Positions 11,561-12,503 of a stretch of 64,000 bases of DNA are shown here, piece by piece (position 1 is the first letter of the stretch; each line of letters opens with the position of its first letter). Source of the stretch: Bacillota bacterium (GTDB lineage Bacteria; Bacillota; Sulfobacillia; Sulfobacillales; JAIMBI01). The stretch is from NCBI GenBank assembly GCA_021846565.1, contig JAJZWS010000006.1:1-64000 (forward strand), given 5' to 3'. The notes under the pieces are model-generated. The model searched no databases, had not been told where the DNA came from, and saw nothing but the letters and a program-made list of their open reading frames with translations. Made by a program: the position numbers and the translations under genes.

Positions 11561-11590
11561 TTGTCGCGCGCGTCTGGGCTGCGCTATGAT
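11561..11590 (+). promoter_or_regulatory. Promoter of the selenoprotein gene
   Basis: TTGTCG (11561-11566), 18-bp spacer, TATGAT (11585-11590), about 70 bp before the AAGGAGG of the SelW-like gene. Both boxes fit the sigma-A consensus at four to five positions. Confidence 0.55.
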
Positions 11591-11679
11591 GGCGTAGCGG
11601 TCCCACGCGGGCCGTGGTTCGGATGCGCATAACATAACGACTCACGAAATCCCCAGCCAAGCGAAGGAGGCGGCCCATC

Positions 11680-11916
11680 ATGAAAGTCCAGATCCGCTAC
11701 TGCACGGCCTGAGGGTACTTGGAACACGCCACCCGGGTGGTGGCCGAAGTCTTGAAGGCGCTTGTCGCCGACGTATCGGCGGCGGAGCTGGTCCCCGGCT
11801 CCAATGGGGTGTTCGTGGTCTCAGCTGACGGAACGCCGATTTTTTCCAAATCGGAGGAGCAGCGATTCCCCGAACCCGGCGAGATTGTCGCCCGACTTAA
11901 GGCGCGGCCGTCCTGA
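11680..11916 (+). CDS. SelW/Rdx-family selenoprotein with in-frame UGA (Sec)
   Basis: Reading from ATG 11680 (GAAGGAGG 9 nt upstream) gives MKVQIRYCTA, then TGA at 11710-11712, then GYLEHATRVVAEVLKALV and so on to the stop at 11916, 78 residues with Sec. The CxxU motif (C-T-A-U) sits exactly where SelT/SelW/SelH thioredoxin-like Rdx proteins have their CxxC/CxxU redox site, after the first beta strand. The rest matches the family (TPIFSKSEEQRFPEPGEIVARLK). A conventional call would start at TTG 11719 and lose the active site. Rdx proteins are small cytosolic thiol/selenol redox proteins of uncertain partner. The gene is followed directly by a CPBP-protease frame. Confidence 0.88.
11728..11744 (+). 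promoter_or_regulatory. bSECIS-like hairpin downstream of the UGA
   Basis: GCCACC (11728-11733) pairs with GGTGGC (11739-11744) around the loop CGGGT. The loop begins 21 nt after the UGA and has a G among its first two bases. This fits the published description of bacterial SECIS elements, which lie a short distance past the UGA and bind SelB. The role is inferred from position and shape. Confidence 0.6.
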
Positions 11917-11996: not shown

Positions 11997-12503
11997 TTGG
12001 CGGGCGTGGGCGCCGTATCGCCGTCCGCGCCCACGCGGGCCCGCCACCGGTTTGGGGCCACCATTGCCCTCCTCGTGCTCCTGTCCGCGGTGGAGGAAGT
12101 GGTGTTCCGCGGAGGCGTACTGGGCTGGGGCGGGCAGGTGCTGGGCACACCCGCAGCCTTGGCCGTCTCCTCGATCGGGTTTGCTGCCAGCCACGCCTTC
12201 CCCACCCGTCTCTCCCTCACGACATGGGTCAACCTGACGTTGTACGGCCTCTTCTTTGGATTGGCGTATCTGGTGGGAGGGCTGCCCGCCTCCGTCGCGT
12301 TGCACGGCAGTTGGAACGTGTGGGAGTGGGGCCTCGGGTTTACCGTGAGTGGCCCCACCACCTCGCACCTGCTGCCCACGCCCCCCGTAAGGCGCCCGCT
12401 GCGGCAGACTCCCTATGGACCCGAGGGGCACTGGGCGGCCACCGTCACCTGCCTATTGGCGGTGGGAACCACCCTGGTCGTGCTGCGGCCCGGCGGGCTC
12501 TAA
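11997..12503 (+). CDS. CPBP-family intramembrane metalloprotease
   Basis: The protein carries the three CPBP/Abi motifs in transmembrane helices: EEVVFRG, FAASHAF and HGSWN, which provide the glutamate and histidine metal ligands of the Rce1-like glutamic or metallo protease fold. The conventional start is TTG 11997 (168 residues), but the same frame is open back to 11901 and encodes another hydrophobic segment (LAAGSVLFLATWALLAGV). Translation may therefore begin near CTG 11913, whose last two bases overlap the TGA of the selenoprotein gene and would couple the two. The function of bacterial CPBP proteases is often in bacteriocin immunity or prenyl-protein-like processing; here it is unknown. 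Confidence 0.75.
   Translation: MAGVGAVSPSAPTRARHRFGATIALLVLLSAVEEVVFRGGVLGWGGQVLGTPAALAVSSIGFAASHAFPTRLSLTTWVNLTLYGLFFGLAYLVGGLPASVALHGSWNVWEWGLGFTVSGPTTSHLLPTPPVRRPLRQTPYGPEGHWAATVTCLLAVGTTLVVLRPGGL

Follow-up and report, generated by a model that had tools for sequence, protein, structure and literature searches.

SelW-like selenoproteins carrying a CxxU motif appear in published lists of prokaryotic selenoproteins, according to the accessible parts of two such sources (PMC13188914, PMC9312934), and another, likewise accessible in part, lists members for Symbiobacterium thermophilum, Desulfotomaculum reducens and Alkaliphilus (PMC1794560). The functions of such prokaryotic selenoproteins are described as largely uncharacterised in the available text of a 2026 review (PMC13188914). 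Prokaryotic SELENOW-like proteins, as far as these partial sources define them, combine the Pfam domain PF10262 with CxxU, and both are shared by the protein described here, which was predicted from a 64,000-nucleotide stretch of Bacillota DNA (the window). In contrast to the listed proteins, the window copy and its nearest relatives occur in MAG-only or unnamed Bacillota, and the five public entries found for the window copy are truncated.

It is very probable, close to certain, that positions 11680–11916 of the forward strand encode a 78-residue Rdx/SelW-like protein with a UGA codon predicted to specify selenocysteine (Sec) in a CxxU motif, and with a likely bacterial SECIS element (bSECIS) at 11728–11744. 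This Sec reading is predicted because the Rdx frame extends on both sides of the UGA, the genome holds a sel gene set, relatives share the UGA, and the hairpin that follows it covaries. The gene family is already known; that the window gene is a further member of it, new in poorly described Bacillota genomes, is solidly supported.

Reading frame, family and genomic setting

A first-pass annotation of the window had proposed a well-placed ATG with a ribosome site, opening a frame that meets TGA exactly at the fourth position of a CxxC-type motif and then matches Rdx proteins to its end. This arrangement was found throughout: the ATG at 11680 is preceded at a distance of 9 nt by a Shine–Dalgarno-like GAAGGAGG (11663–11670, read in the sequence), the TGA at 11710–11712 completes the motif C8-T-A-U11 (11701–11712), and the frame then stays open to a terminal TGA at 11914–11916. 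With the first TGA read as U, the predicted product is MKVQIRYCTAUGYLEHATRVVAEVLKALVADVSAAELVPGSNGVFVVSADGTPIFSKSEEQRFPEPGEIVARLKARPS. Purine-rich stretches also precede the start codon in the Rdx genes of relatives. A weak sigma-70-like promoter match, which is a consensus match only, lies at 11561–11590 on the same strand and agrees with the consensus at 9 of 12 positions (one present versus 0.1 expected from shuffles).

The alignment to SelW/Rdx proteins suggested in that annotation placed the U-read frame in Pfam family Rdx (PF10262) with 67.5 bits (cut-off 22.6; E-value 1.2e-18), and the alignment covers residues 2–74 and profile positions 1–73/74, i.e., both sides of the UGA. The NCBIfam model TIGR02174 (CXXU_selWTH) scored 56.7 bits, above its cut-off of 34.2, while the best NCBIfam match, NF041051 (SelTWH_Campy), reached 75.9 bits, under its equivalog cut-off of 88. 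An Rdx score over the cut-off, an N-terminal CxxU with UGA, the predicted fold and the sel machinery, the features by which a SelW-like selenoprotein was recognised, were thus all present. This is the single Rdx match in its genome (134 contigs, 95.67% complete), with one TGA inside it. A pattern scan of the window for CxxTGA or TGAxxC with the frame open on both sides returned 12 further candidates, and no redox context was recognised by eye in these 12.

The downstream neighbour, at 11997–12503 on the forward strand, is a gene resembling membrane proteases of the Rce1/CPBP type (PF02517), with an uncertain start codon. By eye, a CPBP-like frame also lies 3' of Rdx in L021/L050 and L023/L052, relatives from the same genus. 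The comparison of downstream neighbours, made by eye, covered 55 rows (54 Sec and one Cys; none for L022/L047); the neighbours were alike within a genus or family only, and not across families. The genomic setting therefore says little about the role of the Rdx gene.

Conservation of the UGA codon and the selenocysteine machinery

A profile search found Rdx in 30 of 101 genomes (the genome itself and its 100 nearest relatives), and exactly one TGA, the predicted Sec codon, was present in every one of the 31 Rdx matches from these 30 genomes. Adding three named Bacillota MAG records (L021–L023), which match three of these genomes exactly over the stretches compared, brought the rows for reading to 34; CxxU and a start codon upstream of the UGA (ATG, GTG or TTG) were present in every row. 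The script that read the rows sought CxxTGA by pattern, so that this motif count arises partly by construction, and each of the 33 loci given to it returned a row; the pattern reading is not the sole support, since one TGA per match had been counted beforehand by the profile search, which is independent of it. One relative, G093, carries two tandem Rdx(U) genes, with matches about 110 nt apart (L027).

Among 398 genomes of the phylum, 31 had an Rdx match (eight of these, and the genome itself, also belong to the 101-genome set), with TGA in 28 of the 31 and absent in three: G442 has CGPC, G244 has Arg (CGA) in a fusion protein, and G272 is a partial match. The CGA of G244 (L070) stands where like frames have the Sec UGA, a possible loss of Sec. 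A cysteine codon mutated to TGA, or misread as such during sequencing, would also give the window's frame, TGA being one base away from both TGC and TGT; yet such a pseudogene or error would have to recur in 31 of 31 matches among the nearest genomes and in 28 of 31 across the phylum, which reduces its probability to a negligible level.

Public databases present the gene differently. A protein search of 5.8 billion sequences, which reaches only close relatives and similar lengths, yielded five relatives from 11 candidates, all of them 59–65 aa long and all starting past the UGA, without the active site. The prediction that gene calling would start at an internal TTG and lose the active site was borne out, as the mechanical list of open reading frames starts at TTG 11719 (65 aa) and the 65-aa database protein P0002 begins at the same point. 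Such short entries are expected when gene callers treat UGA as a stop. Likewise, the RefSeq coding sequence of Thermomicrobium roseum begins after its UGA, while the Rdx frame continues upstream. According to the available part of one report (PMC4607533), GenBank held most of the newly found epsilonproteobacterial Sec genes in truncated form, and SelW genes were missed especially.

Taken at face value, the open reading frame list, the five public proteins and the similar T. roseum coding sequence would be the products of a UGA that is a true stop, followed by a restart at TTG 11719 that gives an Rdx remnant of 65 residues lacking the active site. We consider this very unlikely, since every one of the 34 rows has the cysteine of CxxU and a start codon upstream, and residues 2–8, which form the first strand in the predicted fold, are encoded upstream of the UGA. 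A set of homologues all starting downstream of the UGA, named in the first-pass annotation as evidence that would overturn the Sec reading, is thus not what the relatives have.

The same annotation had reasoned that a genuine selenoprotein gene requires selA, selB, selC and selD, and that absence of selB and tRNA-Sec would speak against it. The genome search recovered the whole set, including both of these: selA (443 bits), selB (300.2 bits, or 320.9 bits with a C-terminal neighbour piece in the same frame; cut-off 242.25), tRNA-Sec (67.8 bits; identified by ARAGORN as tRNA-SeC with anticodon tca) and selD (349.8 bits), the last with its own in-frame TGA in KSGUGCKLGP. The selD gene (L018), itself a candidate selenoprotein gene, lies near a large frame that by eye resembles a molybdenum hydroxylase subunit.

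The frame would also be open under a changed code in which UGA is read as Cys, Trp or Gly. However, the gene's own terminal stop is TGA, tRNA-Sec (tca) and the sel genes are present, and the covarying hairpin described below would have no role, so that this explanation is left with almost no probability. On the conservation, the terminal TGA, the sel set and the upstream CxxU, a pseudogene, a sequencing error, a changed code and an internal start were all rejected.

Other genes of this genome have in-frame TGA codons as well. A match resembling the formate dehydrogenase alpha subunit (Fdh-alpha; 623.5 bits, under the cut-off of 666.25) has a TGA in CNRTUHAPSV; it is split on contig C55 (L075, L078), where profile positions 51–672 lie upstream of 1–49, with one TGA. 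An in-frame TGA was also found in five of eight AhpC/TSA matches, seemingly at the catalytic position (L085–L089; WTPVU, FTGGU, ATUTAC, LFUPYC and QYULSC). The genome is accordingly rich in candidate Sec peroxiredoxin-like proteins, and with selD and the Fdh-alpha-like match it appears to use Sec in several proteins. Sec-containing formate dehydrogenase and peroxiredoxin are mentioned for Sulfobacillus in the accessible portions of two papers (PMC4378227, PMC7409299).

At a line of 57 bits, picked after the scores were seen, tRNA-Sec was found in 27 of 30 Rdx genomes versus 40 of 71 non-Rdx genomes (Fisher p 0.001, with kinship ignored); at the search's own E-value limit, the counts were 28 of 30 and 53 of 71. 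The Rdx genomes without tRNA-Sec at 57 bits are G004 (97% complete), G031 (one match of 52.6 bits) and G039 (59% complete), for which assembly gaps are a possible cause.

The hairpin downstream of the UGA and its covariation

The hairpin with a G-containing loop reported in the first-pass annotation to begin 15 nt after the UGA is present at 11728–11744 of the forward strand as GCCACC-CGGGU-GGUGGC (stem 11728–11733/11739–11744, loop CGGGU at 11734–11738), starting 15 nt past the UGA. The bacterial SECIS model, as given in the available text of PMC13188914, has a stem of 4–16 bp, a loop of 3–9 nt with a G in its first two positions, a UGA-to-loop distance of 16–37 nt and an energy of -7.5 kcal/mol or lower; with a 6-bp stem, a 5-nt loop with G at position 2, a distance of 21 nt and an energy of -10.5 kcal/mol (11725–11748, 24 nt), the window hairpin agrees with the model in every one of these respects. 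Its folding energy was not exceptional in comparison with shuffles, the z-scores being -0.95, -0.58, -0.01 and +0.83 for stretches of 24, 34, 45 and 51 nt, respectively. Single-sequence energy was uninformative in this GC-rich sequence, and covariation and synonymous recoding were therefore used; the case for the hairpin consequently rests on covariation. Scanned at gathering scores, the window gave no Rfam match, and a permissive scan of 11660–11800 gave two matches, far below gathering scores.

The hairpin alignment comprised 44 distinct Sec genes without gaps, i.e., the 54 Sec rows minus six Rdx-DUF2703 fusions (L068, L069, L071–L074) and four exact 60-nt duplicates; L059 (Cys), L070 (Arg) and the partial match of G272 are outside the Sec set. 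Of the 6-bp stem of the window, five core pairs (11729–11733/11739–11743) are conserved across the 44 sequences and form exactly their consensus, four of the five showing changes on both sides, whereas the outermost pair (11728–11744) is not conserved and is unpaired in 34 of 44. For the six pairs of the window, cells with both sides changed numbered 36 versus 9.5 ± 2.4 in shuffles, and the covariation score of 0.412 exceeded both the shuffled value (0.171 ± 0.018) and that of each of six slid registers. Two other measures were not clearly above the shuffles: pairs with both-side changes (4 versus 2.4; 34 of 500 shuffles as high) and further pair types (9 versus 8.0; 154 of 500 as high). A register slid by -3 still paired 81.8% of cells, compared with 84.5% in the true register. 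Since two of the five pair measures and the -3 register come near the shuffled or true level, the recoding and Cys controls carry particular weight.

Synonymous recoding was used because the hairpin stretch is coding: the codons after the UGA were redrawn in 2000 trials according to the codon use of each locus, which was estimated crudely from all open stretches of at least 250 codons across the six reading frames, a pooled table standing in where a locus offered few data. All five core Watson–Crick pairs were present in 36 of 44 Sec sequences, versus 3.6 ± 1.8 after recoding (maximum 11); eight of the 44 hairpins are short of at least one core Watson–Crick pair, and L063 has only two. The Cys control consisted of 11 plasmid-borne homologues and L059, with codon use taken from the 60-nt stretches themselves; the plasmid sequences came from 12 of 32 records, picked for genus variety, one of which, T. 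roseum, turned out to carry UGA and was kept separate from the control. These 12 Cys homologues have a mean of 1.75 of five pairs versus 1.58 after recoding, i.e., no excess.

The T. roseum gene (plasmid NC_011961.1, L091), from another phylum, has its TGA in CTSU and forms five of five pairs. Within family f143, the CTSU form of G310 has five of five pairs, whereas the CGPC form of G442 has two, a difference that would represent an exchange between Sec and Cys in which the hairpin was lost or gained. In this family, similar enoyl-reductase-like frames, judged by eye, follow Rdx at L054 and L059. With the Cys set near the recoded level, the Sec sequences paired, T. roseum included, and the two forms in f143, pairing thus follows the UGA and not the protein family. 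The hairpin counts come from related sequences and are not independent events. Of the six fusions, counted apart, one has all five pairs and the others have four each. When any bSECIS-like hairpin was allowed (at least four pairs, free columns), one was found in 43 of the 44 Sec sequences but also in 8 of the 12 Cys sequences, and the mere presence of some hairpin is therefore weak evidence. Altogether, recoding, the consensus and most of the pair-count measures, with no excess among the Cys homologues, indicate that the pairing is kept by selection, and the hairpin at 11728–11744 likely acts as a bacterial SECIS element.

The pairing may also touch the protein. Among the 44 Sec sequences, residues 18 and 21 are Ala/Ala in 21 sequences, Thr/Val in 18, Val/Ala in three and Val/Thr in two; the first position of codon 18 pairs with the second position of codon 21 in all 44 of them and in 6 of the 12 Cys sequences. 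It may be, with the chances for and against about equal, that the recoding hairpin, and not the protein alone, sets these two residues in the helix behind the active site, which would change together because their codon bases must pair. Such a coupling to RNA pairing would be a modest addition to what is known of the family.

Predicted fold, proposed activity and related fusions

An AlphaFold2 model was built from 18 rows with Sec entered as Cys (including L049 but not L056, L058 or L063, and with altered end points for L061). It has a pLDDT of 95.1 and a pTM of 0.83, and the order of strands (E) and helices (H) is E2–8, H14–28, E34–40, E45–49, E52–56, H57–60 and H68–75, consistent with a predicted thioredoxin-like Rdx fold. 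The best PDB match to the model was 2fa8 (TM 0.90), and bacterial proteins related to SelW make up the best matches; the 21 PDB chains with E-values of 0.001 or lower belong to six entries, the same ones found by sequence. The entries 2fa8 from Agrobacterium, 2obk from Pseudomonas fluorescens and 3dex from Streptomyces are Cys-type Rdx proteins with 30–36% identity to the window protein and TM values (by query) of 0.87–0.90 for the listed chains, one 3dex chain having 0.84. In the alignments 2fa8 and 3dex have CxxC, whereas the window gene has UGA at the second Cys. In the model, C8 is at the end of the first strand and U11 after it, where a thioredoxin-type redox pair is usually found.

These features suggest how the locus could work. 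The hairpin at 11728–11744 would keep SelB and Sec-tRNA at the ribosome, Sec would be inserted at the UGA at 11710–11712, and a 78-residue protein with a CxxU active site would result. C8 and U11 could then form a selenenylsulfide, which we infer would be reduced by a cellular thiol system, and the Rdx(U) product would be a small thiol-selenol oxidoreductase.

Any Sec codon brings some selenium dependence, and one could hypothesise that the UGA serves mainly as a selenium-dependent switch, with only short peptides made without selenium and Sec being kept for the sake of regulation. No regulatory evidence was seen for the gene, and CxxU is the reported Sec position in the family in the available text of PMC13188914; we regard a switch as very unlikely, and prefer the reading of the UGA as the Sec codon of a redox active site.

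In six relatives within the phylum (L068, L069, L071, L072, L073 and L074), Rdx(U) is fused to DUF2703 (PF10865), as shown by Pfam for L069 and by eye for the other five, and the Sec codon lies at base 1528 of the strand that carries Rdx. The neighbours of these fusions include, by eye, ArsR-like frames (L069, L071), an ACR3-like pump (L068, L071) and the start of an ArsM-like frame (L074). DUF2703 is reported within a Rhodococcus arsenic cluster in the accessible part of PMC6514093, and neither 'seleno' nor 'Rdx' was found in the available main texts of two papers naming DUF2703. A selenoprotein tied to arsenic handling would be worth a separate study.

The window gene adds a well-supported predicted selenoprotein to poorly described Bacillota genomes, and a study of these genomes by their predicted proteins alone would probably miss the Rdx enzyme as well as other candidate Sec proteins of the window's genome.
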